A stretch of DNA of 64,000 nucleotides from positions 558,001 to 622,000 of the forward strand of contig NZ_CP013232.1 of NCBI RefSeq assembly GCF_001584145.1, given 5' to 3'. Position 1 is the stretch's first letter, and every line of letters begins with the position of its first letter. The notes beneath the pieces are model-generated. The model was given only the letters and a program-made list of their open reading frames with translations. It searched no databases and was not told the origin of the DNA. The position numbers and the translations under genes are program-made. This stretch comes from Collimonas fungivorans (GTDB lineage: Bacteria; Pseudomonadota; Gammaproteobacteria; Burkholderiales; Burkholderiaceae_D). This document shows positions 8,853 through 64,000 of the stretch, one piece after another.

Positions 8853-9044
8853 ATGAAAAACCCTTTTGAAGACGACAACACTCAATACCTGGTGTTGCGC
8901 AATTCGGCTGGCCAGCATTCTTTGTGGCCTCACTCCAACGACGTGCCAGACGGTTGGACCCAAGTACTCGGCCCTGAGTCGCGCGTGGCATGCATCAAGT
9001 ACGTCGAGGAGCATTGGACGGACGTGCGTCCGATCGAGGCATGA
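8853..9044 (+). CDS. MbtH-like protein 1
   Basis: 63 residues, the usual length for the family. MbtH proteins bind the N-terminal subdomain of A domains and aid their folding and activity. The family core is clear: N-terminal NPFEDDN, NSAGQHSLWP at about residues 17-26, P-x-GW at about 31-34 and a C-terminal W-T-D-x-R-P. A good ribosome site, AGGAG, sits 8-9 bases before the ATG. The stop overlaps the start of the glycosyltransferase (ATGA), so the two are translationally coupled. A second copy is at 61771-61962. Confidence 0.97.
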   Translation: MKNPFEDDNTQYLVLRNSAGQHSLWPHSNDVPDGWTQVLGPESRVACIKYVEEHWTDVRPIEA

Positions 9045-22200: not shown

Positions 22201-25200
22201 GAGTGCCGTCGGCATTCTCGTCACTGCTGCAGCAATCGGTTTTGCCTAGCACGGTGCACAGCATCGTGCTGGCTGGCGAGGCGCTGCCGATCTCCCTCCT
22301 GCAGAAAATTCGTGGTGACCTGCCCGCATGCCGAGTGTTCAATATATACGGGCCAACGGAGGCGACTGTGTACGCGGTAAGCTGGGAGGCGCAGGAACAA
22401 GGCGCCCCGGCGATTGGGCGGCCGATTACCAACACGCAGGTCTACGTGCTGGACACCTACTTGCGGCCCGTGCCGGTGGGTGTGGCAGGGGAGCTGTACA
22501 TTGCTGGGGCGGGATTGGCACGAGGCTACCTGAGAAGGCCCGGGCTAACGGCCGAGCGTTTTGTGGCCTGCGTGCATGGGCATCCTGGCACGCGCATGTA
22601 CCGCACAGGGGATTTGGCGCGCTGGCGCGAGGACGGACAACTGGAGTACCTGGGGCGGGTTGACCAACAGGTGAAGATCCGTGGTTTTCGCATCGAACCG
22701 GGCGAGATTGAGGCCAAGCTGGGGGCGTGCGAAGGCGTACGAGAAGCGGTGGTGTTGGCTCGAGAGGATGTGCCAGGCGACAAGCGCCTGGTGGCTTATG
22801 TTGTGGCATCGCAGGAACAGGGGCAAGAGCAAACACTGGACGTGGCGGCTTTGCGCGACGCGCTGGCGCTCGAGCTGCCGCACTACATGGTGCCGGCGGC
22901 CTTCGTGCAGCTCAAGGCATTGCCGCTGACACCCAGCGGCAAGATTGACAGGAAGGCGTTGCCGGCGCCGGACATGCAAGCGTTTGGAGTGCGCTTTTAT
23001 GAGGCGGCCCAGGGTCCGGTGGAGACCGCACTGGTCCAGTTGTGGCAAGAGCTGTTGGGCCAGCCGCAGGTGGGTCGGCACGACAATTTCTTCGAGTTGG
23101 GAGGACATTCGTTGCTGGCCACGAGGCTGGTGTCGCAGCTCAGACAGCGGCTGCAGGTGGAAGTGCCTGTGAGGGCGCTGTTTGAAGAGCCCAGCGTGGC
23201 GCAGCTGGCGCAGCGGGTGCAGGAACTGCAGGCACAAGGTCAAGCGCTGAACTTGCCGGCGTTGCAGGCACAGCCACGCCCGCAGATTGTGCCGCTGTCG
23301 TTTGCACAGGAGCGGCTGTGGTTCCTGGAGCAACTGCAACCGGGGCTGGCGCAGTACAACATACCGATGGCGGTAGAGCTACACGGCGTTCTTGATGAGC
23401 AGGCGCTGGAGCAGGCGCTGCAAGCGCTGGTGGACAGACACGAGTCGCTACGAACGAGGTTTGAAGCCATCGATGGCGTGCCGCAGCAGCAAGTGCTGGC
23501 GCAGTTGCAGGTGAAGTGGCACTTGGTGGACCTCAGCGCGCTGACGGCCGAGCAAGGCCAGGCGCAGGTGCGAGAAGTGGCGCAGGCAGAAGCGAGGCAA
23601 ATATTTGACCTGAAGACTGGGCCATTGCTGAAGGCGAGCCTGGTCAGGCTGGGAGCGCAGGAGCATGTGGCGCTGCTCACGCTGCATCACATCGTCACGG
23701 ACGGCTGGTCGATGGGGGTGTTTGTCAAGGAATTGGCGGCACTGTACGGTCAATACGCGGCCGGTGAGGCGGCGCAGTTGGCGCCGCTGCCGGTGCAGTA
23801 CGCGGACTACGCGATGTGGCAGCGCAGTTGGCTGCAAGGAGAGATGCTGCAGCGCCAGCTCCAATACTGGAGCGAGCAACTGCAAGGTGGGCCCACGCTG
23901 CTGGAGCTGCCCACCGATCGGCCGCGGCCCGTGCAGGCCAGCTTTGCCGGTGCGACGCACGCGTTGCAGCTGCCCCAGGAGCTGAGCGAGCAGGTGGAGC
24001 AGCTGGCGCAGCGCAGAGGCGTCACGCCTTTCATGGTGTTGCTGGCGGTCTACCAGGTGCTGTTGGCCAAGCTGAGCGGCCAGCGCGACATCGTCATCGG
24101 TTCGCCGATTGCGGGGCGCACACACGCGGACACGGAAGGCCTGATCGGGTTCTTCGTCAACACGCTGGCGCTGCGCGCGAACATCGACCTTGATCGCGGC
24201 TTTGAGGACCTGCTCGCCCAGGTTCGTGAGACGATCTTGGGTGCATACGCGCACCAGGACCTGCCCTTCGAGAAGGTGGTCGAAGTGCTGCAGCCGCAGC
24301 GCTCACTGTCGCACACGCCGGTATTCCAGGCGATGTTCGTGCTGCAGAACGTGCCGATGATGGAGGTCGATGTGCCGGGGCTACGCATGAGCGGCGTGGC
24401 GCAAGACGGTGGTGCAACAAAGTTCGACCTGATGCTAGCGTTGAGGCAGACCGCACAAGGTTTGCAGGGTAGCTTGCAATACGCCAGCGAGCTGTTCGAT
24501 GCGTCGACGATCCAGCGCTGGGCGGGGTACTTCGAGCAGTTGGTGCGTGAGGTAGTGAACCAGCCCAGGCTGGCACTGAGCCGCATCGAGCTGCTCGATG
24601 CAGCTGAGCGTGATCAGATACTGGAATGGGGTAGTGCGAAGCGGAGTTGGGAGCCGAATGGTGGCGTTGCGCAGAGATTCGAGGAGGTGGCCCGGCGCAA
24701 CGCACAGCGGATCGCTGTGGAGTGTGAAGGTCGGCAATTGAGCTATGCGCAGCTAAATGCGGCGGCCAACCGTGTGGCCCGATTCCTGAGAGCGAGAGGC
24801 GTGGGGCCGGACTCGCTAGTGGGCCTATGCATGTGGCGCTCGGTGGAAATGGTTGTGGGGATGCTGGGAATACTAAAGGCGGGCGGGGCCTACCTGCCAC
24901 TGGACCCAGCCTATCCGCAGGAGCGACTGAACCACATTCTGCGGGATGCGGAGCCGCGCTTGGTGCTGACGCAGCACGATTTGGTGAAGGTGCTGCCAAA
25001 TGAGGTGGAGTGCTGGTGTCTGGATAGCCAGAACGAATGGCTTGAGGTATTTGACGACGGCGACCTGCCAGGCGTCAGCGGGCCTCTGGATTTGGCTTAC
25101 GTGATCTATACGTCGGGCTCGACGGGGCAGGCCAAGGGCACGCTGCTGTCGCAGGGTAATGTGCTGAGGCTCTTCGATGGAACGCAGGATTGGTTCGGAT

Positions 25201-26441
25201 TTGATGAGGACGACGTCTGGTGCCTGTTCCACTCGTTTGCGTTCGATTTCTCGGTATGGGAGGTATGGGGCGCGCTGTTGTATGGTGGAAAATTGATAGT
25301 GGTACCCCACCTGGTTACTCGAACGCCAGAGCAATTCTGGCGACTCCTGGCAGAGCAAGGGGTGACGGTGCTGAATCAGACGCCGTCGGCGTTTGCGCAA
25401 CTGATGCAAGCCGACACTCAGATCGGCGGGGAACTGGCACTGCGCACGGTGATCTTTGGCGGCGAAGCGCTCAATCACGCAGCACTGGTCCCGTGGTTTG
25501 AGAAGTACGGCCAAAGCCGGCCGCGGTTGGTCAACATGTACGGCATCACCGAGACGACGGTACACGTGACGTACCAGCCGCTGCAGGCGCAGACGCAGTC
25601 ACCGGCTTCGGTGGGGCAAGCGATTCGGGACCTAGCCTTGTACGTGCTTGACGAGCAATTGCGGCCCGTGCCGGTGGGTGTGGCAGGGGAGCTGTACATT
25701 GCTGGGGCGGGATTGGCGCGAGGCTACCTGAGACGGCCCGGGCTAACGGCCGAGCGTTTTGTGGCCTGCGCGCATGGGCAGCCCGGCACGCGCATGTACC
25801 GCACGGGTGATTTGGCGCGCTGGCGCGAGGACGGACAACTGGAATACCTGGGACGGGTTGATCAGCAGGTGAAGATCCGCGGCCACCGTATTGAGCCTGG
25901 AGAGATCGAGGCGGTGCTGGCGCAGCACGATGGCGTGGCGCAGGCGGTGGTGGTGGCGCGTGAAGACATTGCTGGCGACAAGCGCCTGGTGGCTTATGTG
26001 GTGGCATCGCAGGAACAGGGGCAAGAGCAAATGCTGGACGTGGCGGCTCTGCGCGACGCGCTGGCGCTAGAACTGCCGCACTACATGGTGCCGGCGGCCT
26101 TTGTGCAGCTCAAGGCATTGCCGCTGACACCTAATGGCAAGCTTGACAGGAAGGCCCTGCCGGCACCCGAGGGAGAAGCGTTTGTGCGGCGCATGTATGA
26201 GGCACCGGTGGGCGAGATTGAACAGATGCTGGCCTCCATTTGGAGCGAACTGCTCAAGATCGAGCAAGTGGGACGTCACGACAACTTCTTCGAGCTCGGG
26301 GGGCACTCCCTGCTGGCTGTGACTTTGATCGAACGCATGCGTCAACGAGGCTTGACGCTTGCAGTACGTAACCTGTTTGAGCATCCAAGCTTGAGTGAGC
26401 TTGCGGCAAGAACCAATGAATTTGAAGAGATTCTGTTATGA
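10216..26441 (+). CDS. NRPS2: five-module peptide synthetase with about ten one-base frameshifts
   Basis: After restoring ten missing bases the gene is 5412 codons. The N-terminus (from 10216, or the second ATG at 10228) is a TubC-type docking domain. Modules with rough positions: C 10440-11690, A1 11800-13260, PCP 13400-13580; C 13660-14950, A2 15040-16510, PCP 16600-16790; C 16860-18130, A3 18230-19720, PCP 19830-20020; C 20090-21400, A4 21460-22940, PCP 23020-23210; C 23280-24610, A5 24690-26150, PCP 26200-26390. Codes I read: A1 and A3 D-V-Q-F-I-A-H-M-A-K (Pro-like), A2 D-I-L-Q-L-G-L-I-W-K (Gly), A4 D-V-V-S-V-A-I-V-Y-K (unassigned), A5 D-F-W-N-I-G-M-V-H-K (Thr). Frame breaks lie near 11928, 12291, 13058, 16048, 16141, 16397, 17045, 17110-17140, 17556 and 18114. 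From 18117 to 26441 it is intact. The acidic tail NEFEEILL may dock to NRPS3. The stop overlaps the NRPS3 start. Confidence 0.93.
11608..15553 (+). repeat. 3.9-kb two-module direct repeat, copy a
   Basis: Runs from the end of a C domain through A(Pro-like)-PCP-C to the A3 motif of the following A domain. It matches 18043-21990 almost perfectly; the offset drifts from 6435 to 6437 only because of one-base deletions (three here, one in copy b). Confidence 0.9.
18043..21990 (+). repeat. 3.9-kb two-module direct repeat, copy b
   Basis: Partner of 11608-15553. Both copies diverge at the same point, just after the [10 protein letters not shown] motif, where the substrate-selecting core of the next A domain begins (Gly type after copy a, unassigned type after copy b). 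Confidence 0.9.
22926..23950 (+). repeat. PCP-C block repeat, NRPS2 copy 4
   Basis: Fourth copy of the block at 3338-4362. It remains nearly identical to the copies at 13.3 and 19.7 kb through the whole C domain, until about 24620, where the sequence changes just after the C domain. Confidence 0.9.
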
Positions 26442-29400
26442 CTATTTATACCTTGCTGTCGCAGCTTGAAACGAAGGGCATTTCTCTTGCTCTCAAGGGG
26501 GAAGAAATCGTTGTTCGTGGAGACAAAAAAGCTCTTGCGGATGAAACGCTACTGAATATGTTGAGGCAAAGAAAACCGGAACTAATTGCCTATCTTGGCA
26601 AAGAAGGCTACATCGGAAAATTTGCGGGAAATTCTGTCACACCCTCAAACCAGATTCCTCCTTATGCTACCGATATCCGACCCGAGATGTTGACATTGGT
26701 GTCGCTCAAGCAAGAGGAGATAGACCGAATTGCCAGCCAGGTAGAGGGAGGCTGTGCCAATATTCAGGATATCTACCCACTTGCTCCCTTGCAGGAAGGC
26801 ATCCTGTTTCATCACTTGCTGCAGCAGCAAGGCGAGGCCTACGTGACGCCGACGCTGCTTGCCTTTGACAGTCGCGAGCGTTTGGACCGTTTTGTGCAAA
26901 CGCTGAACCACGTGGTTGCGCGCCATGACATCTTGCGCACGGCAGTTGTCTGGGAAGGGCTGGACGAACCCGTGCAAGTGGTGTGGAGGCGCGCGCGCTT
27001 TGAGCTTGAGGTTTTGGATTTTTCTGAGGGCGATGTGCAAGCACAACTGCTTGCGCATGCTGACCCGCGCCACTACCATCTGGACGTGCGCCAAGCCCCC
27101 ATGATGCGAGGCTTTGCGGCCAGCGATCCGACAGGCCAGCGTTGGTTGCTGCAGTTTATGTTTCATCACTTGGTGATGGATCACACCACGCTGGAGCTGC
27201 TTATTGGAGAGATCGCACTCATTCAGCAGGGTCGAGAAGTGGAGTTGCCGCCCGCTGTGCCGTTTCGCAATTTCGTGGCCCAGGCACGCCTGGGTGTGAG
27301 CAAGGCAGAGCATGAGGCGTTCTTCCGGGAGATGTTGGGGGATGTTGACGAGCCAACCACGCCGTTTGGGCTGCAGGACATTCAGGGAGATGGCTCCCTG
27401 ATACGCGAGGCACGCCTGGAGGTCGCTCCTGATCTGGCGCGCCGCCTTCGCCGCCAGGCGCGCCAGCGCGGGGTAAGCGCGGCTAGCGTATTTCACCTGG
27501 CCTTTGCTCAAGTGCTGGCCAAGAGCACGGGGCGTGATGATGTTGTTTTTGGAACCGTGTTGTTTGGCCGCATGCAAGGCGGTGCAGGAGCCGACCGTGC
27601 CATGGGCATGTTTATCAACACATTACCGTTGCGAGTTCGATTGGGTGAGCAATCTGTTTTTCAGTGCGTGCAAGCGACGCACAAGGGGCTGATCGGTTTG
27701 CTGCACCACGAGCATGCCTCGCTAACACTGGCCCAGCGGTGCAGCGCACTGTCTGGTACAGCGCCGCTGTTCTCTGCACTGCTGAACTACCGCTACAGTG
27801 GGCAGCCGACCAACGGGGATGCCACGAACGCATTCGAAGGCATGAGGGTGCTGGGGGGAGAGGAGCGAACCAACTACCCCCTTACGTTGTCGATAGACGA
27901 TCTTGGAGAGGGGTTCTGGTTGACCGCGCAGATTGTTGAGACTATCGGAGCGGACAGAATCTGTCAGTTCGTGCACAAGACACTGCAACAGTTGGTAGAT
28001 GCGCTGGAGCACTCGGCGGAATCACCGATACGCACACTGCAAGTCTTGCCAGATGCTGAGCGCGCGATGGTGCTGCAGGGTTTCAACGACACGGCCTGCC
28101 CCTACCCGAAGGGGGCGATGATTCATGAGTTGTTTGAGCAGCAAGCACAGGCACGTCCGGACGCGATAGCGCTGGAATTTGAAGATCAGAAGCTCAGCTA
28201 TGGCGAGCTCAATGCAAAGGCCAACCAATTGGCGCGCCATTTGATCGAATTGGGTGTCAAGCCCGATGCGAGAGTGGCGTTGTGCTTGGAGCGCAGCCTG
28301 GAGATGGTGATAGCCATTTTGGCTACACTCAAGGCTGGGGGCGCCTATGTGCCGCTAGACCCGGCGTATCCGGTGGAACGGTTGGCACACATGGTTGAGG
28401 GCAGTGAGCCGGTGGTGCTGATAACCCAGGCTGCGGTGCAGGCAAAGTTGAGTGCAACCGCTGTATTTTCTGACTTTGCTCCAGTTGTCCTCATTGATGC
28501 CCAACCTTGCGACCAGAGTTTGTGGGCACATGAGTCTCCCCAAAACCTCGCCCCATGCTCTTTGGGTCTGAACGCCTCGAACCTGGCGTATGTGATCTAT
28601 ACCTCGGGATCAACGGGCCAGCCAAAAGGGGTGATGATTGAGCATCATCAGGTAATAAATCTTTGGGTCGCTCTAGAGCAAGCGATTTACCGCCACCATC
28701 CAGCAGAGAACGTTCAACGCATCAGTCTAAATGCATCGATTTCGTTTGATGTCGCAGTTCAGCAATGGGTGCAACTACTGTCTGGAAGAACTCTAGTACT
28801 CGTTCCCAATGCGATGCGCTATGACGGAGCAGCGTTGCGGGATTGGATTAAAGGGAGCTGCCTTGATGTCTTAGATTGCACTCCGACCCAAATAAAAATC
28901 GCCATTGAAGACACGCGTGATTATTCGATACTCGATAGTCAACGGCCTTATGTTGCGCTCGTCGGAGGTGAAACCATGGGTCCTAGCTTATGGGCTCAGT
29001 TTGGAAACTCGAAGACGACGACTTTCTATAACGTCTATGGTCCGACCGAATGCACGGTCGTCTCTACAGTTGGATGTGTGCATGCGGGAGATGCTTCGCC
29101 TCATCTTGGTCGTCCCATAGCGAACACGAAAGTCTACATACTAGATGGGTATCAACAACCGGTGCCAATTGGAGTAGCTGGAGAGATGTACATAGGTGGA
29201 GTGGGAGTAGCCCGCGGGTACTTGAACCGCCCAGATCTGACGGCTGAGCGCTTCATATCGGACCCGTTCTCCAAGGAACCCGCAGCGCGCCTGTACAAGA
29301 CAGGGGATTTGGCACGTTGGCGGGAGGACGGAGCAATTGAGTTCTTGGGGCGCAACGACCATCAGGTCAAGATAAGGGGATTCCGTATCGAGCTTGGTGA

Positions 29401-32400
29401 GATTGAAGCTCAACTTGCACGCCTGCCTGGTATTCGCGAGGTGGTGGTGGTGGCGCGTGAAGACATTGCTGGCGACAAGCGCCTGGTGGCCTATGTTGTG
29501 GCATCGCAGGAACAGGGGCAAGAGCAAATGCTGGACGTGGCGGCTCTGCGCGACGCGCTGGCGCTAGAACTGCCGCACTACATGGTGCCGGCGGCCTTTG
29601 TGCAGCTCAAGGCATTACCGCTGACACCTAATGGCAAGCTTGACAGGAAGGCCCTGCCAGTACCCGAGGGAGAAGCGTTTGTGCAGCGCGTGTATGAGGC
29701 ACCGGTGGGCGAGATTGAACAGATGCTGGCCTCCATTTGGAGCGAACTGCTCAAGATCGAGCAAGTGGGACGTCACGACAACTTCTTCGAGCTCGGGGGG
29801 CACTCCTTGCTGGCCGTGACTCTGATCGAACGCATACGTCAACGGGGCTTGACGCTTGCGGTACGTAGCCTGTTTGAGCATCCGAGCTTGATGGAGCAGG
29901 CCCATGCTGTGAGTGCAGGACAAGTGCAAGGGCTGCCTGAACTGGCCGTACCCACCAATGGCATTGCTCAGGACTGCACGCATATCCGACCCGAGATGTT
30001 GACATTGGTGTCGCTCAAGCAAGAGGAGATAGACCGAATTGCCAGCCAGGTAGAGGGAGGCTGTGCCAATATTCAGGATATCTACCCACTTGCTCCCTTG
30101 CAGGAAGGCATCCTGTTTCATCACTTGCTGCAGCAGCAAGGCGAGGCCTACGTGACGCCGACGCTGCTTGCCTTTGACAGTCGCGAGCGTTTGGACCGTT
30201 TTGTGCAAACGCTGAACCACGTGGTTGCGCGCCATGACATCTTGCGCACGGCAGTTGTCTGGGAAGGGCTGGACGAACCCGTGCAAGTGGTGTGGAGGCG
30301 CGCGCGCTTTGAGCTTGAGGTTTTGGATTTTTCTGAGGGCGATGTGCAAGCACAACTGCTTGCGCATGCTGACCCGCGCCACTACCATCTGGACGTGCGC
30401 CAAGCCCCCATGATGCGAGGCTTTGCGGCCAGCGATCCGACAGGCCAGCGTTGGTTGCTGCAGTTTATGTTTCATCACTTGGTGATGGATCACACCACGC
30501 TGGAGCTGCTTATTGGAGAGATCGCACTCATTCAGCAGGGTCGAGAAGTGGAGTTGCCGCCCGCTGTGCCGTTTCGCAATTTCGTGGCCCAGGCACGCCT
30601 GGGTGTGAGCAAGGCAGAGCATGAGGCGTTCTTCCGGGAGATGTTGGGGGATGTTGACGAGCCAACCACGCCGTTTGGGCTGCAGGACATTCAGGGAGAT
30701 GGCTCCCTGATACGCGAGGCACGCCTGGAGGTCGCTCCTGATCTGGCGCGCCGCCTTCGCCGCCAGGCGCGCCAGCGCGGGGTAAGCGCGGCTAGCGTAT
30801 TTCACCTGGCCTTTGCTCAAGTGCTGGCCAAGAGCACGGGGCGTGATGATGTTGTTTTTGGAACCGTGTTGTTTGGCCGCATGCAAGGCGGTGCAGGAGC
30901 CGACCGTGCCATGGGCATGTTTATCAACACATTACCGTTGCGAGTTCGATTGGGTGAGCAATCTGTTTTTCAGTGCGTGCAAGCGACGCACAAGGGGCTG
31001 ATCGGTTTGCTGCACCACGAGCATGCCTCGCTAACACTGGCCCAGCGGTGCAGCGCACTGTCTGGTACAGCGCCGCTGTTCTCTGCACTGCTGAACTACC
31101 GCTACAGTGGGCAGCCGACCAACGGGGATGCCACGAACGCATTCGAAGGCATGAGGGTGCTGGGGGGAGAGGAGCGAACCAACTACCCCCTTACGTTGTC
31201 GATAGACGATCTTGGAGAGGGGTTCTGGTTGACCGCGCAGATTGTTGAGACTATCGGAGCGGACAGAATCTGTCAGTTCGTGCACAAGACACTGCAACAG
31301 TTGGTAGATGCGCTGGAGCACTCGGCGGAATCACCGATACGCACACTGCAAGTCTTGCCAGATGCTGAGCGCGCGATGGTGCTGCAGGGTTTCAACGACA
31401 CGGCCTGCCCCTACCCGAAGGGGGCGATGATTCATGAGTTGTTTGAGCAGCAAGCACAGGCACGTCCGGACGCGATAGCGCTGGAATTTGAAGATCAGAA
31501 GCTCAGCTATGGCGAGCTCAATGCAAAGGCCAACCAATTGGCGCGCCATTTGCGTGAGCTAGGGGTGACGTCGGAAGTATTGGTAGGTGTCTATGTAGAA
31601 CGTAGCCTGGAAATGGTGATAGCCATTTTGGCTACACTCAAGGCTGGTGGGGCCTATCTGCCGCTGGATCCGAACTATCCAGCCGAGAGGCTTAAGTACA
31701 TGTTGTTTGACGCGAATCCAAAGGTGGTACTTACACAAAACAGGTTGCTGACGCAACTACCTGTCTACGATGCTCAAATACTGTGTCTAGACAGCCACTG
31801 GCAAGAGCAGATAGCTGCGCAGTCCGTCGACAATCTCGTCTGTCTTACCCAACCATGCAACTCGGCTTTTGTAATTTACACCTCAGGATCAACTGGTCAA
31901 CCCAAGGGGGTTGTCAATACAGTCGAAGGGCTTGGCAATCGACTTTGGTGGTTTGGACGAAAATTTGCTGCTGTTGGAATTTTGAGGACAGCATTGAAGA
32001 CGAGTATCGGTTTCGTGGATTCCGTTACTGAGGTATTGGGGACGTTGCTTTATGCAGGGCAGCTCATCATTTTTCCGCAAGAAACCTTACTTGATCCTGA
32101 GTTGCTGGGCGCGAGTGTGCACGAGTATGAAATTAATCATATCGTGTTAGTACCTTCGTTATTGAGGCACGTACTCCAAGCCGATGCCCGACTTTTTCAA
32201 TCGATAAAGCTAGTGATTTCAAGTGGTGAGTATCTACCTAAAGAACTAATCGATCAGGTACATAGAAAATGGCCGCATGCCTGTCTTATGAATTTTTACG
32301 GATCGGCTGAGGTGAACGGAGATGCCACGTTCAATGAATGCTTACCCGGCACTCATGCAACCAGCTCTTCTATAGGAAAGCCCATAGCGAACACGAAAGT

Positions 32401-33928
32401 CTACATACTAGATGGGTATCAACAACCGGTGCCAATTGGAGTAGCTGGAGAGATGTACATAGGTGGAGTGGGAGTAGCCCGCGGGTACTTGAACCGCCCA
32501 GATCTGACGGCTGAGCGCTTCATATCGGACCCGTTCTCCAAGGAACCCGCAGCGCGCCTGTACAAGACAGGGGATTTGGCACGTTGGCGGGAGGACGGAG
32601 CAATTGAGTTCTTGGGGCGCAACGACCATCAGGTCAAGATAAGGGGATTCCGTATCGAGCTTGGTGAGATTGAAGCTCAACTTGCACGCCTGCCTGGTAT
32701 TCGCGAGGTGGTGGTGGTGGCGCGTGAAGACATTGCTGGCGACAAGCGCCTGGTGGCCTATGTTGTGGCATCGCAGGAACAGGGGCAAGAGCAAATGCTG
32801 GACGTGGCGGCTCTGCGCGACGCGCTGGCGCTAGAACTGCCGCACTACATGGTGCCGGCGGCCTTTGTGCAGCTCAAGGCATTGCCGCTGACACCTAATG
32901 GCAAGCTTCACAGGAAGGCCCTGCCGGCGCCAGACATCGGTGATGCAACCAGGGGATACGTGGCTCCGCGTACGCCAGTTGAGATCCAGCTCACGCACAT
33001 TTTTGCCGATTTGCTAGGGCTTGAGCTCAATCAGATAGGCATCTACGAGAGTTTCTTCGATCTAGGTGGGCACTCATTGTTGGCGGCACGTTTGGTGACT
33101 CTAATCGATAGAAATTTAGGGGTTCAAATATCCATACGAACTATCTTTGAGGCGCATTCAGTTGCTGACTTGGCCGCACGCATCGCCGAAGGCAGCGCTT
33201 TGGAAGATATCTTCGCGCCACTTCTGACGCTGCGTGCTGGCGGCAATCAGCCAGCGCTGTTTTGCATCCATCCTGGCACCGGGCTGAGTTGGCAGTATGC
33301 TGGCTTCAGTCGGCACATAAGAGCGGACCGACCGATTTATGGATTACAGGCGAGCATGATCGCCGATGCCACAATGGAGATGCCGCGAAGCGTGGGCGAA
33401 CTTGCAGAAGAATACATTCGAATCATACGCCAAACCCAGCCCTCGGGACCGTACCACCTGATCGGTTGGTCATTTGGTGGACTCGTTGCCTTCGAGGTCG
33501 CAATACGATTGCAGGCTGAGCAAGTGGAAGTTGGACTGATTGCATTGATTGACAGCTTTCCATCCCGAGCAACGGTGGATTCAACGCTACCCAACATAGA
33601 ACAATTAACGTATGTATTTCGCGAAGCCGGAATGGACGCCACGTTGCTCAGCGATTCCCATTTGACCCAAACGCACAGGTTTTTGGCAAATGTTCTTGAA
33701 ATCTCGCGCTTCGTTCCATCGGGTGTGTTGAGCGGAAACATATTGTTCTTCCGGGCGCGAGACGCCGAGCTTGATGAGAATGTATGGAGACCGTTTACTA
33801 ACGGTCAGATCGCGCGGCACGAAATTGATGCGGATCATCATTTCATGATGCGCCCCCAGCCAATCAAGGAAATCGCCGATGTCATCAATTCGTCAATTAG
33901 TAACATCGGTACTCAAGTCAAGCCGTGA
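26438..33928 (+). CDS. NRPS3: two dual C/E modules plus terminal thioesterase
   Basis: 2496 residues, intact. Order: TubC-type docking domain (residues 1-60), dual condensation/epimerisation domain (about 80-545), A, PCP, second dual C/E (about 1185-1650), A, PCP, type I thioesterase (about 2265-2496). Both C domains carry the N-terminal extra His motif of dual C/E domains, [10 protein letters not shown] (His125-His126 in the first), besides the catalytic HHLVMD (His243-His244). These domains epimerise the residue loaded by the preceding module before condensing it, so D-Thr and a D residue are predicted. Codes I read: D-V-Q-D-L-G-V-V-V-K (Gln-like, last variable position atypical) and V-D-T-V-I-S-F-G-D-K (Asp shifted by one, as in beta-alanine-type domains). 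The thioesterase nucleophile is Ser2345 in GWSFGG, with a C-terminal DADHHFM. The ATG overlaps the NRPS2 stop. Confidence 0.96.
26673..28243 (+). repeat. Dual C/E domain repeat, copy 1
   Basis: 1571 bases covering the first dual C/E domain and the start of the next A domain, with the same sequence at 29982-31552 (offset 3309). Confidence 0.93.
29113..29658 (+). repeat. A-domain C-terminal repeat, copy 1
   Basis: Encodes the A-domain segment after the specificity core, from the [10 protein letters not shown] region to the end of the C-terminal subdomain. Nearly identical to 32381-32926 (offset 3268). Confidence 0.9.
29982..31552 (+). repeat. Dual C/E domain repeat, copy 2
   Basis: Second copy of 26673-28243. 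The translated products are identical over this stretch. Confidence 0.93.
32381..32926 (+). repeat. A-domain C-terminal repeat, copy 2
   Basis: Partner of 29113-29658. The unique A cores of NRPS3 lie between this repeat family and the dual C/E repeat. Confidence 0.9.
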
Positions 33929-34484: not shown

Positions 34485-36206
34485 ATGAACATTTTGGGTC
34501 TGAATTATATTTTTCATGATTCGTCCGCTTGTATTGTCAGCAATGGAGTCCTGGAGATCGCCATCGAGGAGGAGCGACTGACCGGCGAGAAGCATAGCCA
34601 GCGGTTTCCTGAACAGGCCATCCATCGGTGCATGAAGGTCACTGGACTCGTGCCTGACGATATCAATCACATTGCGGTCTCATTCAATCCGCAAAAGAAC
34701 ATCCTCGAAAAAGCGCTCTACGCGGTCTCGTTGACAAAAAATGCGCTGCCGTTCATTTCCTACGAGTTCGTGCGTCTGCGAGCCCGTCAGGACGCGTTCC
34801 GTGCTTGGTACACGAAGACCTGGGGACGTGGGGTTCGCCGGCCTCGTGTCCATTTTATCGACCACCACTTGTCGCATATAGGCGGCAGCTATTTTGTCTC
34901 GCCTTTCACCGATGCGGCGCTATTGTCGGTTGATGGCTGGGGCGAATGGTCGACGACGTGGATGGGGTTTGCGAACGGGTCGACGCTGCAACAGATCGGC
35001 GGCAGCAATTTCCCGCACTCTCTGGGCTGCTTTTATACAGCCGCTACCGAGTTTTGCGGTTTCAAGCCGAACTACGACGAGGGCAAGACAATGGGCCTGG
35101 CGCCTCTCGGAGATCCCGAACGTTTTTACAAGGATGTCGATGCTCTCGTGTCGATCGGCTCGAACGGACAGGTTTTCCTAGATCTGTCGCAGTTCCAGTT
35201 CCAGAAGTTCGGTGGCCGGTTCTGTAGCCCGGCGTTCCACAAGAAATTCGGTGCCCCACGCGCTCCTGGTGAAGAAATCCAACGACATCACGAAGACGTA
35301 GCCGCTGCCTTTCAGAAGGTTTTGGAAGAGAAGCTCATCACGCTCTGCCGACATCTCGAAAAACGGGGAAAGTCGCGCAACCTGGTGCTAGCTGGCGGCG
35401 TTGCATTGAACAGTGTTGCTAATGGCCGGATCCTGCGGGAGACGGCATTCGACGACGTTTATGTCATGCCTGGCGCCGGTGACAATGGAACGTGCATTGG
35501 CGCGGCGTACCAGTTGTATAACGGCGTGCTGAAACAACCCAGGAGCTTCCATCACGACCATCCCTACATTGGCACTGACTATTCGAATGACGAGATTGAG
35601 AAGACCCTTCGGCAGGCGAAGGTCTCTTACCGTCGGGCAAGCGACGTCTGCTCGGACGTCGCCCAGTTACTCAGACAAGGCAAGATCGTGGGCTGGTTTC
35701 AGGGACGAATGGAATTCGGCCCACGCGCGCTAGGCGGCCGCAGCATCCTCGCAGATCCGACTCGACCGGGTATGAAAGACAAGATCAATTCTGAGGTCAA
35801 ACATCGGGAACGCTACCGACCTTTCGCGCCGTCCGTGCCCCTTGAGGATGCCTCGCGATACTTCGTCTTCGACGGCGAGTCGCCCTTCATGTTGATGGTC
35901 TGCGACGTCCAGCTCGAATACCATCAGATCCTGCCAAGCATCACTCACGTCGATGGTACCGCACGGCTGCAGACTGTCACGCAGGATGGGAATGAAAAGT
36001 ACTACCGCCTGCTTAAAGAATTCGGAAAATTGTCGGACGTTCCGGTCCTGCTGAACACGAGTTTCAATATCATGGACCAGCCCATCGTGGAATCACCGAT
36101 TAGTGCACTGCGCTGTTTCTTCTCTACGGGCCTCGATGTTCTGTCCATCGGAGACTTCATTTTGGAGAAGGCACCTGACCTGCATCGGACTGAGCAGTAT
36201 TGTTGA
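34485..36206 (+). CDS. NodU/TobZ-type O-carbamoyltransferase
   Basis: 573 residues, full length for the family. These enzymes make carbamoyl-adenylate from carbamoyl phosphate and ATP and pass the carbamoyl group to a hydroxyl, often on a sugar. The N-terminal Kae1-like domain starts with GLNYIFHDSSAC and IEEERLTGEKH, then shows DHHLSH and VDGWGEWST. The second half has LAGGVALNSVANG, PGAGDNGTCIGAA, and the YrdC-like C-terminal part has GRMEFGPRALGGRSI and HRERYRPFAPSV. The ribosome site AGGAG lies 5 bases upstream. Located downstream of the NRPS genes in the same direction, so it may decorate the glycosylated peptide (inference). Confidence 0.93.
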   Translation: MNILGLNYIFHDSSACIVSNGVLEIAIEEERLTGEKHSQRFPEQAIHRCMKVTGLVPDDINHIAVSFNPQKNILEKALYAVSLTKNALPFISYEFVRLRARQDAFRAWYTKTWGRGVRRPRVHFIDHHLSHIGGSYFVSPFTDAALLSVDGWGEWSTTWMGFANGSTLQQIGGSNFPHSLGCFYTAATEFCGFKPNYDEGKTMGLAPLGDPERFYKDVDALVSIGSNGQVFLDLSQFQFQKFGGRFCSPAFHKKFGAPRAPGEEIQRHHEDVAAAFQKVLEEKLITLCRHLEKRGKSRNLVLAGGVALNSVANGRILRETAFDDVYVMPGAGDNGTCIGAAYQLYNGVLKQPRSFHHDHPYIGTDYSNDEIEKTLRQAKVSYRRASDVCSDVAQLLRQGKIVGWFQGRMEFGPRALGGRSILADPTRPGMKDKINSEVKHRERYRPFAPSVPLEDASRYFVFDGESPFMLMVCDVQLEYHQILPSITHVDGTARLQTVTQDGNEKYYRLLKEFGKLSDVPVLLNTSFNIMDQPIVESPISALRCFFSTGLDVLSIGDFILEKAPDLHRTEQYC

Positions 36207-56190: not shown

Positions 56191-56982
56191 ATGCTAGAAA
56201 ATCAACTGAAAAGATATGACGAGGAAGGTTTTCTATTCGTTGAAAATCTTCTACCTAGTTCAGATTTGAATGAAATTCGTGAAGATATTCCTAGAATATT
56301 GTCACTTCAGCAGGAGGGCAATATTTTTGAGAACAACGCTACCACATTGAGAGCCATTCATGGAAGTCATTTGATAAGTCGTGCTTGCGATCGTTTATTG
56401 CGCAACCGGCAAATACTTTCGTTTGTGGAGAATATATTAGAGACTAAGGTCTATTTATACCAATTTAAAATCAATTTCAAAGCCGCATTTGTTGGTGCCG
56501 TTTGGCCATGGCACCAGGATTTTGTCTATTGGCACAAAGAAGATGGCATGCAGGCACCACACGTCGTAAATGTGGCTGTTTTTTTGGATGAAGTAACGGA
56601 GTTTAATGGGCCACTATATTTGATACCAAAATCACACACTCATGGCCTGATCGAGCCGAAAATTGCTGAAAAGACCTTAGAGGAAAAAGATTCGGCAGCA
56701 TGGAAGTCGAATGTAAGTGCGGCCTTGACATACCAAATAACAGATGAAGATGTTTCCAATTTGGTGGGTTCTGGAAATATAGTATCAATTAAAGGACCGC
56801 CAGGTTCAGTACTTTTTTTCCATGGAAATATGGTGCATGCTTCAGCACCAAATATCTCACCGTTTAATAGAAGAATGATTCTTATGACTTACAATAGTAC
56901 GCAAAATATTCCAATCCCCACTAAAACTCGTAGGCCAAACTTCCTAGTCAATTGGGCCGTGGATCCATTGAGTCCAATTTAA
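56191..56982 (+). CDS. PhyH-family Fe(II)/2-oxoglutarate dioxygenase
   Basis: 263 residues, intact. The iron triad is His108-x-Asp110 in PWHQDFVYW and His216 in GNMVHASAPN, followed by the 2-oxoglutarate Arg in SPFNRRMI. Relatives include ectoine hydroxylase and several amino-acid hydroxylases of peptide antibiotic pathways. AT-rich, like the tandem cupin genes, and flanked on both sides by IS debris, so it probably came by transfer. Its location near the piperazate and aminotransferase genes suggests it hydroxylates an amino acid or the peptide (inference). Confidence 0.88.
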   Translation: MLENQLKRYDEEGFLFVENLLPSSDLNEIREDIPRILSLQQEGNIFENNATTLRAIHGSHLISRACDRLLRNRQILSFVENILETKVYLYQFKINFKAAFVGAVWPWHQDFVYWHKEDGMQAPHVVNVAVFLDEVTEFNGPLYLIPKSHTHGLIEPKIAEKTLEEKDSAAWKSNVSAALTYQITDEDVSNLVGSGNIVSIKGPPGSVLFFHGNMVHASAPNISPFNRRMILMTYNSTQNIPIPTKTRRPNFLVNWAVDPLSPI

Positions 56983-57949: not shown

Positions 57950-58597
57950 GAGGTAACTCCCGCCCTTGCCCCGACCTATTCGGCGACATCCGTATTTGTA
58001 CTGATGGTTTGTACAAACACATGCGGATGGATTGAAGCGATTGAATCCATTACATTTACCCACAAGAGATTTATTGGAAGCCTGATGGCTTACTGGCCGT
58101 GAATAAGAAAAAAATAAGTGTCCAGCCGTTTAAAATTTCGCTTCCTTGAGAAGCCGATTTTCGTCTTTCTACTAGGTTTCAAATCTTTCCGTATGGAGGA
58201 GAACGATAAATGGAGGCACGTCGTAGAACGAAAATCTCAGTATGTATATATGACATAAACAATGAGTTCCTTGAAGCAATGGTCATATTCCATTGAACTT
58301 CTGGAGCAAATACCTCTTTTCCAATGCTTCCAACGTGTCTCCGCCCATTGTTTTGCCATGCCAGTTACCCTTTTCGAGTCCATACATTGACTATGTGGAC
58401 GATAAAAGTGTGGGCATGCACCGGACCATCTACAGATGCAGCTGAATTGGCAGTTGAATAAGCTTTGCTACATTTTAGGACATTCACATCCATGATTCAT
58501 TTCAGTCATGAACAGCCAGCTGCCCGTCAGCATCCTGTCTCAGAGTGCGCTCAATGAGCAGGGTAAAGTCGGTCATAAAAATTAATGTAAAGACAAT
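57950..58597. other. Upstream region of the piperazate gene pair
   Basis: About 650 bases without a recognisable gene. The piperazate-type operon must be transcribed from here or further left. I see no clear operator or Fur-box-like palindrome by eye. Confidence 0.4.
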
Positions 58598-59911
58598 ATG
58601 AAGACTGAATCTCCTACTGTTTATGACGTCCTTGGAATTGGATTTGGCCCGTCAAATTTGGCTTTGGCTATTGCTATTGAAGAGCAATCACAGGCATCTG
58701 TTTGCGTTCCACTTCATGCACTGTTCTTTGAAAAGCAGGAACGCTTCGGTTGGCACCGTGGGATGCTTATCGAAGGAACGACAATGCAGGTCTGCTTCCT
58801 TAAGGATCTAGCGATGTTGCGGAATCCGACCAGTCCTTTTACATTCCTATCATATTTGCATGACAAGAATAGACTTGTCGACTTCGTCAACCATAAGATC
58901 TTATTTTCCTCACGCGTAGAATTCCACGATTACCTCGAATGGGCAGCAGCGAAACTGAAGCGCCTGGTGCAGTACGATGCTGAAGTGGTCGAAGTATCGC
59001 CCGTCATATGCGATGGAGTAGTGAAGTGGCTGGATGTCGTCGTGCAACGCGACGGCAATCCATCGCACCATGAGATATACCGGACGCATAATCTCGTCAT
59101 TGCGCCAGGACTGGAACCCACAATGCCTCCCGGGATTAGCCGCTCCGAGCGTGTCTGGCACAGTAGTGAAGTTCTCGATCGGATCGCACACCTCACAGAG
59201 GAGCCGCAACAGTTCACGGTAGTCGGCGCGGGACAGAGTGCTGCCGAAATTACTGCCTATCTTCACGATCATTTTAAATACGCGAAGGTACGCTCGATAT
59301 TCTCACGCTACGGCTATAGTGCAGCGGACGACAGTCCTTTCACCAACCGTATCTTCGATCCGCTTGCGGTCGATGAATACTACCAAGCTCGGGATGACGT
59401 CAAAAAAATGCTGCTCAACTTTCACCGAAACACCAACTATTCTGTGGTAGACGCGGACCTTCTCGAAGATCTATACAGAAGGCACTATCAAGAAATGGTC
59501 CGCGGCGAATCCCGATTGGAATTCATGAACGTTTCCAAGGTATTTGGTGCTGTCGCTGATCGCGACTCAGTTGATTTGTCGGTGGAATTCCTTCCAACTG
59601 GGGACATGCGCAAGCTTCGATCGGATATTGTCGTTTTTGGAAGTGGTTACAAGATAGCGGACCCAATTCGTTATTTTTCTGACTTCGCCGGAAAGTGCAT
59701 AAGGGACAGTTTCGGTCAGTTGCGCGTAGCTCGAAATTACCGCATATGTACTTCCGAAGATGTCGAGTGCGGAATTTATTTGCAAGGTACGACAGAACAT
59801 ACGCATGGCTTGTCATCGACGCTGTTGTCCAATACCGCGGTGCGCGCCGGCGAAATACTTGAAGCGATGACATGGGAACGCGACAACAAAAAAATTTCTT
59901 CCCACGCATAA
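58598..59911 (+). CDS. L-ornithine N5-hydroxylase (KtzI/PvdA family)
   Basis: 437 residues, normal for the family. FAD- and NADPH-dependent N-hydroxylase of the ornithine side chain. FAD motif GIGFGPSN at residues 13-20, MQVCFLKDLAMLRNPTSPFTFLSYLH as the substrate and flavin region, NADPH motif VVGAGQSAAE near 208-217, and NFHRNTNYSVVDADLLEDLY in the ornithine site region. The second FAD motif reads VFGSGYKIAD where relatives have ATGY. The very next gene, 12 bases away, is of the piperazate synthase family. Thus the product, N5-hydroxyornithine, is probably cyclised to piperazate rather than acylated for a siderophore, and no hydroxamate acyltransferase gene is visible. Confidence 0.93.
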   Translation: MKTESPTVYDVLGIGFGPSNLALAIAIEEQSQASVCVPLHALFFEKQERFGWHRGMLIEGTTMQVCFLKDLAMLRNPTSPFTFLSYLHDKNRLVDFVNHKILFSSRVEFHDYLEWAAAKLKRLVQYDAEVVEVSPVICDGVVKWLDVVVQRDGNPSHHEIYRTHNLVIAPGLEPTMPPGISRSERVWHSSEVLDRIAHLTEEPQQFTVVGAGQSAAEITAYLHDHFKYAKVRSIFSRYGYSAADDSPFTNRIFDPLAVDEYYQARDDVKKMLLNFHRNTNYSVVDADLLEDLYRRHYQEMVRGESRLEFMNVSKVFGAVADRDSVDLSVEFLPTGDMRKLRSDIVVFGSGYKIADPIRYFSDFAGKCIRDSFGQLRVARNYRICTSEDVECGIYLQGTTEHTHGLSSTLLSNTAVRAGEILEAMTWERDNKKISSHA

Positions 59912-59923
59912 AAGGGGCTGGCT

Positions 59924-60580
59924 ATGTACGTACCTGAATATTATCGAGTCGACGAAAACACTGCGCGCGAACTTGTTTATCGGCACCCGCTCGCGCTTCT
60001 GGTCTGTAACGGTAATAATGGATTACCCTGGGCAACCCACTTGCCAGCGATATTCCCGCCCGAAACACGCAAGCTCCTCGATCAAGGTGAGTCGATCATC
60101 GGTAAAACGATGTATGGACACATGAATCGCATTAATCCACACTGGAACGCATTACAGGCTGGCTCTGCCCTGTTGATCTTTCAGGGGCCGAACAGTTATG
60201 TGTCACCGACGGTCTATGAGGTGACACCAGCTGCACCAACATGGAATTTCACATCGACCCACCTACGCGGCACGCTGCGCCCCATTGATGAGCGAGATCA
60301 GATTCTCGAAATCGTTCGCTGGACGGTAGCCACGTTTGAAAAAGAATTCTGCACAAATTGGGACCTTACCGAATCGATTCCCTATTTCGAGCGGATTGTG
60401 CACGGTGTCGGCGCATTCGCGTTCGAAGTGGAGTCTTTTGATTCAATGTTCAAGCTGAGCCAGGAACAGCCTGCCGCTATCCAGGAACGTGTGGTCAATT
60501 CCTTTGCTTCGAGCAGCCATTGTCCGCATAAAGAAATTGCCGACCTAATGCAGCGTACCAATTCTAAAAACAAAAAATGA
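59924..60580 (+). CDS. KtzT-like piperazate synthase (PaiB-family fold)
   Basis: 218 residues. Belongs to the PaiB FMN-binding-like family, which includes KtzT, the heme enzyme that forms the N-N bond of piperazic acid from N5-hydroxyornithine. Seen: MYVPEYYRVDENTARELVYR at the start, GLPWATHLPAIF, GHMNRINPHW at residues 65-74 (the His66 is a candidate heme ligand), LIFQGPNSYVSPTVYE and PTWNFTSTHLRGTLR. Plain PaiB regulators share much of this, so sequence alone does not decide. The decisive hint is context: the gene lies 12 bases after an ornithine N-hydroxylase, as in kutzneride-type and other piperazate clusters. A GGGGCTGG stretch precedes the ATG. Confidence 0.8.
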   Translation: MYVPEYYRVDENTARELVYRHPLALLVCNGNNGLPWATHLPAIFPPETRKLLDQGESIIGKTMYGHMNRINPHWNALQAGSALLIFQGPNSYVSPTVYEVTPAAPTWNFTSTHLRGTLRPIDERDQILEIVRWTVATFEKEFCTNWDLTESIPYFERIVHGVGAFAFEVESFDSMFKLSQEQPAAIQERVVNSFASSSHCPHKEIADLMQRTNSKNKK

Positions 60581-60659
60581 GGCGTTTTGGGACATAAAAA
60601 AGTGTCCAAATTCGAATAATCTGCAAATATGCGCGAACATGCTCGCTAACGCATCTATG

Positions 60660-61495: not shown

Positions 61496-61770
61496 GTTGA
61501 TCGCGGAATGTCAGGTTCAGCTGTCAAGATGAATGCGTAGTTTATGCGCTATTCATGCGTAGCTATACGGAGAGTGAATCAGTGGCTAGACGGATGCGAT
61601 TTATTTTCAATCTACATACAATAGATACGACGATTCCCAGAAAATTGCTTCATGCGTTTAGGCATTCCCGCTTGTCGGCATGGTAGATTTGGCGAGTTGA
61701 TGCACAAGCTTCGGTGGTCGTGCGCAACTCGTTGGTTGATGTGTTTGTTAACGAAAGAGGAGATAAGTTG
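61496..61770. other. Leader of second MbtH gene
   Basis: About 275 bases without a gene. It ends with AAAGAGGAG, a good ribosome site 8 bases before the MbtH start, and probably carries its promoter. Confidence 0.5.
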
Positions 61771-61962
61771 ATGACTAATCCATTTGAAAATCAGGAAGCA
61801 CAGTATCTGGTTCTAAAAAACTCGGCCGGGCAGCATTCCTTGTGGCCCGTGTTTGGCGATATACCGGCTGGTTGGTCGACCGTATACGGCCCGAAGTTAA
61901 GGGCTGAGTGCCTGACCTATGTCGAGGAAAATTGGACCGATATGCGTCCACTCAACGCTTGA
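61771..61962 (+). CDS. MbtH-like protein 2
   Basis: 63 residues, same length as copy 1 and similar over the whole length: MTNPFENQEAQYLVLKNSAG and QHSLWP, then IPAGW, and VEENWTDMRPLNA. The start at 61771 is supported by AAAGAGGAG; the frame extends further upstream but without family similarity. It is intact, unlike the glycosyltransferase after it. The fact that the MbtH gene stays open while its neighbour has decayed suggests either selection or recent decay. Confidence 0.95.
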   Translation: MTNPFENQEAQYLVLKNSAGQHSLWPVFGDIPAGWSTVYGPKLRAECLTYVEENWTDMRPLNA

Positions 61963-63093
61963 CGTCAAGGGAATTGCTTGTCCGTTGTGTGCTACTGGGA
62001 ATCGGGTGAAGATATTAATCAACGCGTTGGGAAACTTGGGAGACGTCTATCAGTTCTTGACTCGAGGATTGGCACTTCAAGCCGTGGAAATACGGTCTCA
62101 ATGCTTTCCACCGGAAATTTCGAAGAGTTGGTTCGCCGCGCAGGTCTGGATTTTCATGCGATCGCCAGTGCTGAAGACTGCGCGGCCGTACTCAGGAATC
62201 CGGATATCTGGAACGGAGTGAGCGCTGATGATCTCATTGCCGAATATGTTGAAATGACTGCGGAGCCAATTTGTCGGTATGTCGACAAGCAGAAAGAAAT
62301 GTACTCAACGTTGGTAATTGCGGTTAACCGTGGCATAAGGGTGCGAGAGATCCTGTAGCCAATTGATGCCACGTTATCGCCGCTTATCTGATCCCGGAGA
62401 TTTTTTATTCGGACAAGTCTTCTTCCAAACTCGGCTTGTTCCCGGATAGGTTCGCCGGCGTTGCCCCCAGACGATCCAGGCGCCACACTAATGACAGGTT
62501 TTTCGTTATATATCGGCGAAGAAGATAAACGCATCGCCCAAACATGGTGCCACCTGGAGGAGTTTCTCGCAGAGGGCGAGTCTCCAATAGTCCTTACACC
62601 GGGAGCCGCGATGTCGCAAGAGAAGTTCTTTTTTGAGGCAGTGCTGCAGGCATGCCAGAGTTTAGGAAGACGGGCGTTGCTTTTGTCTCCTTATCTCCAG
62701 AAAATACCTCTCGGTTTGCCTCGGACCATCAAACACTTCAATTACCTTCCTCTATGGCGACAACTACCTCATACCTCCGCACTGGTCTATCACGGTGGAA
62801 TTAGGGCCTGTGCCCAAGCTTTGCAGAATGGAGTTTCGCAATTGAGAATGCCTCTGGCATATGAACAATTTGCGAATGCCAACCGGGTAAAGCGATTTGG
62901 AGTGGGCTATTTTCTAGACCTTCGTGCATTTACGGCAGTCCTTCTGGTGGATAAGTTGCATGACCTGACTGCTTCGGAATTAATACGCGTGTCGTGCCAA
63001 AAAATTGCTGAAAATTTTGGCAATGAAGGCGTCATTAACAAGACCTGCGATCTGATCGCAGCCATGAGTAATGTCCGAATCGTGGCCTTATAG
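61963..63093 (+). pseudogene. Decayed second glycosyltransferase (paralogue of 9041-10207)
   Basis: In three frames: VKILINALGNLGDVYQFLTR (compare ILINAWGSMGDVAPFL in the intact gene), then LVRRAGLDFHAIASAEDCAA and NRGIRVREIL before a stop at about 62358, then from 62461 MPPDDPGATLMTGFSLYIGE and on to YHGGIRACAQALQNG. The donor motif HGG-x-GT has become HGG-x-RA. Two frame breaks and a stop make it non-functional. Gene order MbtH then glycosyltransferase is the same as at 8.85-10.2 kb, so the pair was duplicated or acquired twice. Confidence 0.85.
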
Positions 63094-63156
63094 CTTACCG
63101 TTTCAGACGACGATGTGAAGTCGGTATTGCGTTTAAACTTTTGCTTTCGATGCGAG

Positions 63157-64000
63157 ATGTCCATGCTAATCAACGATATGATCCTGACTCAAGAAAAGTT
63201 GTCTTTTCTCGCAGAACGTGAATCAAACGCACGAACTTACAATCGCGACATCGACAGGATTTTCGCTCGTGGAGCCCTCTCGAGGGTTTTCGATAGCGAA
63301 GGCCGTGAATATATCGATTGTCTTGCATGTGCCGGGGCGCTTCCGCTAGGACATAACCATCCTTCTGTGCAGAGCAAGGTTCGTGAGTTTCTGGAATCCG
63401 GGCAGCTGCAGCAGGCCTTGGACATCGCGACGCCGGCAAAGGTGACTTTTATTGAAGAGCTTTACCGGACGCTTCCTTCCGCATTCGCGAAAAACGCGAA
63501 ATTCCAATGTTGCGGTCCCTCCGGATCGGATGCTGTAGAAGCGGCAATCAAGCTGTTCAAGACCGCAACGGGAAGGCGTTCTGTATTGGCGTTCCAAGGG
63601 GCGTACCATGGCATGACGATGGGAGCGCTGGGCTTGATGGGAAATACGGAGCCCAAGGCCAAGGTTAGCGGCTTCATGTCAGAAATCCAGTTCCTTCCTT
63701 TTCCCTATTCCTTCCGTAGTCCTTTTGGCACCGACCCCGCTGAAACAGATCGGCTTTGCCTTGCATACATTGATAATCTTCTAAGCGATCCGGAAAGCGG
63801 AATCACGAAGCCAGCACTCATTATTGTCGAAGCGATCCAGGGTGAGGGCGGCTGCATACCGGCCAGCGCACGATGGCTCAAAGGGTTGCGGGAAATCACC
63901 GAATACCACGACATTCCTCTGGTCCTTGACGAGATTCAGTGTGGTTTTGGGCGATCGGGTGATATGTTTGCCTTTGAATATGCAGATATCGTTCCGGATG
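63157..64000 (+). CDS. Class III (diaminobutyrate-type) aminotransferase, 3' end outside window
   Basis: 281 codons visible, open to the right edge. Start at 63157 or the next Met at 63163 or 63178. Matches diaminobutyrate--2-oxoglutarate aminotransferases: FDSEGREYIDCLACAGALPL followed by GHNHPSV, CGPSGSDAVEAAIKLFKTAT, the PLP-stacking GAYHGMTMGALGLMGN and IVEAIQGEGGC, then LVLDEIQCGFGRSGDMFAFE. The PLP lysine lies beyond the edge. Diaminobutyrate made from aspartate semialdehyde could be a building block of the peptide. No A domain in the window clearly reads as Dab, so the upstream part of NRPS1 may use it (inference). Confidence 0.88.
   Translation, partial: MSMLINDMILTQEKLSFLAERESNARTYNRDIDRIFARGALSRVFDSEGREYIDCLACAGALPLGHNHPSVQSKVREFLESGQLQQALDIATPAKVTFIEELYRTLPSAFAKNAKFQCCGPSGSDAVEAAIKLFKTATGRRSVLAFQGAYHGMTMGALGLMGNTEPKAKVSGFMSEIQFLPFPYSFRSPFGTDPAETDRLCLAYIDNLLSDPESGITKPALIIVEAIQGEGGCIPASARWLKGLREITEYHDIPLVLDEIQCGFGRSGDMFAFEYADIVPD

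Follow-up and report, generated by a model that had tools for sequence, protein, structure and literature searches.

Two adjacent genes of Collimonas fungivorans predicted to make piperazate and probably gained by horizontal transfer

We describe two adjacent genes in Collimonas fungivorans that very likely form a pathway to piperazate, probably gained by horizontal transfer. Actinobacterial hydroxylase and synthase pairs produce piperazate, a rare amino acid with an N-N bond; the enzyme pair is already known, and it is the host that is unusual. The location of the genes between two uncharacterized peptide clusters, in a host group where piperazate is very rare, points to an unknown piperazate-containing peptide. 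Positions below refer to the window, the whole 64,000-nucleotide stretch analyzed (contig NZ_CP013232.1, 558,001 to 622,000), unless marked as genome positions.

The gene pair and its surroundings

Both open reading frames were intact and lay on the same strand, with 12 bases from stop to start (59912-59923), and the ORF check returned the coordinates and spacing first proposed. The GIGFGPSN and VVGAGQSAAE motifs that had suggested an ornithine N5-hydroxylase were both found in the translation. The family assignment agrees, as the hydroxylase belongs to PF13434 (339 bits) and the 218-residue protein to PF04299 (127 bits), both far over the cut-offs. An Rfam scan of 56000-64000 gave nothing over gathering scores. 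The pair and its immediate neighbors are as follows.

56191..56982, + strand: PhyH-type dioxygenase, ectoine-hydroxylase-like, possible imino-acid hydroxylase (PF05721, 114 bits; TIGR02408 under its cut-off)
58598..59911, + strand: N-hydroxylase of the KtzI kind, putatively L-ornithine N5-, 437 aa (PF13434, 339 bits; KtzI, 384 bits; tree)
59924..60580, + strand: predicted KtzT-type heme piperazate synthase, 218 aa (heme-ligand His66; MFKLSQE at residues 175-181)
61714..61962, + strand: MbtH-like NRPS helper (PF03621, 85.6 bits)
61978..63093, + strand: glycosyltransferase in two pieces (ORFs 61978-62358 and 62461-63093), its frame interrupted in this assembly
63115..64000, continuing to genome 622521, + strand: diaminobutyrate-type aminotransferase (PF00202)

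The dioxygenase lies 1.6 kb left of the pair and might act on piperazate. To the right, the MbtH gene is 1.1 kb beyond the pair, and a hydrolase gene is also present. The C-terminal glycosyltransferase piece matched PF06722, with NCBIfam MGT under its cut-off; the N-terminal piece had no Pfam match and was assigned by eye. For the aminotransferase, read as cut by the window, the best NCBIfam match was the diaminobutyrate transaminase subfamily, under its cut-off.

The 218-residue protein groups with piperazate synthases

The 218-residue protein scored 219 bits against LnzB (PDB 9kea), 204 against PipS (9ebk), 190 against KtzT (9jn4), and 184 against SbPZS (9qlk), compared with 140 for the non-synthase NohD, present as a mutant (9or1), and 94 for PaiB (2ol5). 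In a 48-row tree, it nested within the piperazate synthase clade with support of 95/91; the NohD row in that tree is an engineered mutant shifted toward the synthases, the wild type being absent, and this bias works against the result obtained. PaiB regulator identity was ruled out by these bit scores and by this tree.

We then compared active-site columns (SbPZS Y7, T38, N63, N66, Y94, A100, P101, T102, Y150, I154, K173, and neighbors). All 17 were identical to KtzT and to PipS, and 15 of 17 were identical to SbPZS, with E181 and Q182 standing where SbPZS has D and K. The heme-ligand histidine is H66, within GHMN; it aligns with KtzT H65 and SbPZS H61 and is invariant in all 28 aligned rows, the 218-residue protein included. 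The available text of one report describes KLSQ between Met and Glu as telling synthases from PaiB (PMC10888640). The corresponding region reads MFKLSQE in the 218-residue protein, KWKVSQN in a paralogue in the same genome, and KAKLSQN in PaiB. A predicted structural model agreed less well with PaiB than with PipS, KtzT, and LnzB.

The original prediction of a KtzT-type protein is thus upheld by tree, active-site columns, PDB matches, and model, and the outcomes that it had named as contrary, grouping with PaiB and loss of the heme ligand, were not found. On these comparisons, we assign the 59924-60580 product as a KtzT-type piperazate synthase and not a PaiB regulator, its heme binding and catalysis being predicted. 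Judged by sequence, we hold the assignment of the pair as hydroxylase plus piperazate synthase with very high confidence.

The hydroxylase

The best-scoring PDB comparisons for the hydroxylase were 9nns (named as the lysine hydroxylase MbtG; 498 bits), KtzI (384), and PvdA (274). In a 36-row tree, it fell among 34 rows of hydroxylases from actinobacteria, metagenomes, and piperazate pathways, a group separated (100/100) from PvdA and from the siderophore hydroxylase of the same genome. Within this group, a KtzI-Lun16-NBC_00239 clade (100/100) did not include the Collimonas hydroxylase; LydE, from a piperazate pathway, likewise fell outside that clade. The nearest company of the Collimonas enzyme comprised metagenomic and actinobacterial rows lacking an assigned use. 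Its piperazate role is therefore suggested by the partner gene and not by its own placement in the tree, and we infer ornithine as its substrate.

From homology to characterized enzymes, the hydroxylase would convert L-ornithine, with FAD, NADPH, and O2, to N5-hydroxy-L-ornithine. The synthase, holding heme via His66, would then close the N-N bond to give L-piperazate.

Rarity and origin of the pair

We searched for close KtzT homologues across overlapping genome samples of genus, class, order, and phylum. None occurred in 99 genomes of relatives at E 1e-30 (14 of these from the genus), in 368 genomes of the class at 1e-38, or in 398 genomes of the order and 397 of the phylum at 1e-36. Across 72,556 plasmid records, the best KtzT match was 52% identical and came from Streptomyces, in a search from which near records may be missing. 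The sole KtzT relative in a scan of genome contigs was a distant one from Algibacter. The available text of PMC10888640 already notes KtzT homologues in "a few proteobacteria"; their occurrence there is thus rare but not without precedent.

The stretch 58001-60000 has a GC content of 47%, whereas much of the long synthetase described below has about 62%; the published value for the C. fungivorans Ter6 genome is 59%. Horizontal acquisition of the pair appears likely on sequence grounds, and its low GC content makes a high-GC actinomycete an improbable immediate donor. Among near relatives of the hydroxylase and of the synthase, the longest contigs were equal in four cases (2,875, 7,269, 42,855, and 5,297 bases), from which we infer that the pair probably travels together.

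Two further elements of the region were also without close counterparts. Across 14 other Collimonas genomes, nothing exceeded 50% identity to the module-10 adenylation (A) domain of the long synthetase, or 55% identity to the aminotransferase. That this domain, the aminotransferase, and KtzT all lack a close orthologue in the 14 genomes is compatible with, though no proof of, joint acquisition. One other Collimonas genome (G005:C1:2634699-2636018) holds a diaminobutyrate-type aminotransferase gene, 55% identical and with one internal stop, and has no close KtzT.

The upstream synthetase and its candidate piperazate modules

Upstream of the pair, at genome 537-592 kb and partly left of the window, lies a synthetase with about 14 modules. 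The original prediction had placed a ten-module synthetase beside the pair; the synthetase stands, and the count does not, with nine C and nine A domains inside the window and about 14 modules overall. This synthetase has an acyl-ligase-like start, assigned by eye, and a terminal thioesterase, and a desaturase gene lies beside or within it. Its features within the window are listed below.

7410..8765, + strand: TauD-type dioxygenase within the long cluster (PF02668)
8990..10207, + strand: glycosyltransferase within the long cluster (PF03033, PF06722)
11809..12907, + strand: fragmented A domain of module 8, reading DVQFIAHMA and a candidate for piperazate (code reading)
18243..19343, + strand: intact A domain of module 10, also reading DVQFIAHMA and a candidate for piperazate (code reading, tree)
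21483..22532, + strand: A domain of module 11, reading DVVSVAIVY (in a clade holding Lun22-type piperazate domains and other domains)
26438..33928, + strand: final NRPS protein of this synthetase, bimodular, with terminal thioesterase (PF00668 x2, PF00501 x2, PF00975)
34485..36206, + strand: carbamoyltransferase after the long synthetase (PF02543, PF16861)

A complete DpgABCD set for 3,5-dihydroxyphenylglycine adjoins this lipopeptide-type synthetase in its Gram-negative host (L007:5280-10912, genome about 527.3-532.9 kb), with DpgA, DpgB, DpgC, and DpgD all over curated cut-offs.

To read A-domain codes, we used a procedure calibrated on lunaemycin Lun22, for which it returned DVFSVAAYA in four of four modules, matching the available text of PMC9866976. 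Of 52 AMP-binding matches in the genome, 37 were read, yielding 35 codes, two with one gapped position; the other 15 comprise one more module-8 piece and 14 matches at other genome locations, where a stand-alone piperazate A domain may lie. None of the 35 codes was DVF(S/T)V..Y, the canonical one for piperazate. Modules 8 and 10 are proline-type, and their codes end in Met-Ala. Among 13 proline-type comparators (three from the same genome, two from other genomes, and eight of 25 plasmid matches listed), 12 codes ended in VV and one in VI. The LydK code, DVQFNAHMV, has Met at position 330, as do modules 8 and 10. LydK is a predicted piperazate activator according to the available text of PMC12130866, and deletion of its equivalent MatJ abolishes matlystatin, as stated in the accessible part of PMC5719088. 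Module 10 and LydK paired in a first A-domain tree (91/68) and were not sisters in a second, substrate-region tree. The change from Val-Val to Met-Ala in the pocket might fit a six-membered ring. By sequence, modules 8 and 10 are the best candidates for loading piperazate.

Module 11 was favored initially as the likely piperazate domain, its substrate region being nearest to Lun22 among the A domains of the genome. We demoted it after adding seven plasmid A domains, picked among 20 matches listed for a query covering only part of the region: four of those added (three DVFSVAIVY, one DVFCAAIVY) were nearer than any piperazate domain. KtzT relatives occurred on 27 plasmid records, none of which carries any of the three DVFSVAIVY domains. 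Module 11 is now a weak candidate.

Elsewhere in the genome (2934025-2958157), an NRPS cluster with three proline-type A domains fits the tripropeptin cluster reported for Collimonas fungivorans.

In the upstream synthetase, the likeliest loaders of free piperazate would be modules 8 and 10 through their proline-type A domains; we regard delivery there as a serious possibility, somewhat short of an even bet. Given the acyl-ligase-like start together with DpgABCD, the glycosyltransferase, and the carbamoyltransferase, the product would be a piperazate-containing lipopeptide. A fuller picture is more tentative, and we consider it rather doubtful: a glycosylated or carbamoylated Collimonas lipopeptide with piperazate and 3,5-dihydroxyphenylglycine, in which the in-line modules 8 and 10 would use a third, proline-derived code, DVQFIAHMA, and the PhyH dioxygenase would hydroxylate the ring.

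In the open-access literature, four nine-letter A-domain code strings matched no paper, nothing was found on Collimonas with dihydroxyphenylglycine, and Collimonas combined with "piperaz" gave, by title and abstract, only unrelated work. As far as these searches show, a piperazate peptide from this source is undescribed in the open-access literature searched, as judged from the text available.

A downstream synthetase and the interrupted frames

The long synthetase ends about 25 kb before the pair, the intervening genes appear to be unrelated, and a second synthetase lies nearer. This synthetase, C-A-T-C-A-T-TE, is intact (genome 622632-629939) and starts about 0.6 kb right of the window. It is the nearest NRPS, on the same strand and with MbtH in between, and the pair could instead serve it, together with MbtH and the diaminobutyrate-type aminotransferase, to give a small piperazate-containing product. 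Its A codes, DIWELTVDD and DVWHFSLVD, argue against this, as neither resembles a piperazate code; we take them to be Dab-like and Ser, respectively, and the adjacent aminotransferase would account for Dab at this synthetase. No paper linking DIWELT to Dab was found in the open-access literature. We consider use of the pair by this synthetase unlikely.

The NRPS frames were interrupted at three places (window 11809-12907, window 16849-18135, and genome 551983-553043). With frames broken in the long synthetase and in a glycosyltransferase, and with a transposase piece nearby, the pair might be a relic, piperazate being made now or formerly with no intact synthetase to use it. We first read the broken frames as gene decay and dropped that reading after comparing module 8 with module 10. 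The module-8 stretch and its intact module-10 twin were identical in 1,592 of 1,596 aligned columns, the rest being four one-base indels in short runs, with no substitution. Indels alone, in the one copy compared, look like assembly error within repeated modules and not decay. Intact frames are also found in the pair and in the downstream synthetase, and we give the relic reading only a small chance. The long cluster should not be called dead on the basis of its broken frames.

Dehydratase and siderophore readings of the pair

Beyond the piperazate synthases, the nearest solved relative of the 218-residue protein is NohD (mutant, 140 bits), which shares the fold, and the protein could in principle be a NohD-like N-hydroxylamine dehydratase that dehydrates N5-hydroxyornithine without N-N closure. 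The titles of NohD mutant entries list changes to N59, A96, Y144, and EQP after KLSQ; by alignment, the 218-residue protein already has N68, A104, Y154, and E181-Q182-P183. It also falls inside the synthases (95/91) even against a NohD mutant with such changes, and we judge the dehydratase reading very improbable. PDB entries 9oqs to 9or1 cover NohD and mutants whose titles list synthase-like changes, and they form a useful set for separating dehydratase from synthase. A Tistrella relative with 40% identity fell outside the synthases in the tree; the 30.5 kb examined around it held no annotated NRPS or hydroxylase gene, and a TonB siderophore receptor is annotated nearby in the same 30.5 kb.

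The genome itself supplied internal controls. A genome search with the 218-residue protein found one further relative, at 1,019,899, which scored 128 bits to PaiB and 66-86 to piperazate synthases, carried PaiB-like letters at the diagnostic columns, and fell outside the synthases in the tree. One further PF13434 hydroxylase, at 3,193,742, clusters with PvdA (100/100). It belongs to a siderophore-type cluster at genome about 3190-3218 kb, 2.6 Mb from the pair, with a formyltransferase, a TonB receptor, an NRPS, iron-transport genes, a TauD dioxygenase, and a sigma factor. Since that cluster has its own hydroxylase, the two uses of N5-hydroxyornithine appear to be kept apart in this genome.

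The original prediction had noted no hydroxamate acyl- or formyltransferase near the pair, and had named a siderophore cluster just beyond the window as a contrary outcome. Among the scanned neighbors, out to genome position about 645 kb, we found no hydroxamate siderophore genes, and likewise neither a TonB receptor nor a transferase of the formyl or acetyl type, which argues against a siderophore; the genome's own cluster is the one near 3.19 Mb. Siderophore use of the pair's hydroxylase was ruled out by the tree and the separate PvdA-type cluster. A hydroxamate siderophore hydroxylase beside a PaiB-type regulator, a reading encouraged by annotation pipelines that label KtzT-type proteins FMN-binding negative transcriptional regulators, is extremely unlikely given both trees, the separate siderophore cluster, and the separate PaiB-like paralogue.

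Significance

Known piperazate peptides come predominantly from actinomycetes, according to the available text of PMC12150314. A complete, intact predicted pathway in a fungus-feeding soil betaproteobacterium offers a Gram-negative host in which to seek a new piperazate peptide, and gene disruption has already been achieved in the genus, as described in the accessible portion of PMC4690342. Modules 8 and 10 may hold a new piperazate-activating code that can be put to the test and that genome searches based on the canonical one would overlook. Genes of this kind, which commonly carry the labels transcriptional regulator and siderophore-like hydroxylase, can go unnoticed beyond actinobacteria, as this pair shows. 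If the lipopeptide reading is true, the product would be among the first piperazate peptides from a Gram-negative bacterium.

Comparison with known systems

In the available texts on lunaemycin and lydiamycin, a gene pair of this kind with an NRPS leads to piperazate peptides (PMC9866976, PMC12130866). KtzI and KtzT of the kutzneride pathway (Kutzneria) form the same type of pair, and the Collimonas synthase matches KtzT at 17 of 17 active-site columns with 48.5% identity. The Collimonas host differs in being a betaproteobacterium, and its hydroxylase resembles KtzI less closely than it does other actinobacterial enzymes (9nns). The lydiamycin cluster of Rhodococcus fascians likewise holds MbtH, the LydE hydroxylase, and the LydF synthase together by an NRPS, and its A domain LydK shares with modules 8 and 10 both the proline type and the Met at position 330. 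However, LydK stands alone, whereas the Collimonas candidates are in-line modules, and LydF is 43.5% identical. In the lunaemycin cluster of Streptomyces lunaelactis (Lun16/Lun17/Lun22), a hydroxylase, a synthase, and MbtH again lie by a piperazate-incorporating NRPS, as the available text has it (PMC9866976); unlike in Collimonas, where it was not among the codes read, all four Lun22 modules carry the canonical DVFSVAAYA.

GyrB of this genome, a single contig of 5.6 Mb, is 99% identical to that of Collimonas sp. OK412 and 97-98% to those of other Collimonas, and Paraherbaspirillum soli likewise stands at 97%. Song et al. (2015) reported for C. fungivorans Ter6 an orphan 54.5-kb T3PKS-NRPS cluster and an orphan "2-aa NRPS-1" cluster (PMC4690342, available text). 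The genome analyzed here resembles Ter6 in its type III PKS (DpgA), a two-module NRPS, and tripropeptin-like and siderophore clusters, and the strain is probably Ter6 or a near twin, though piperazate is unmentioned for the orphans in the portion of that article available. The clusters flanking the pair are probably those orphans reported in 2015.
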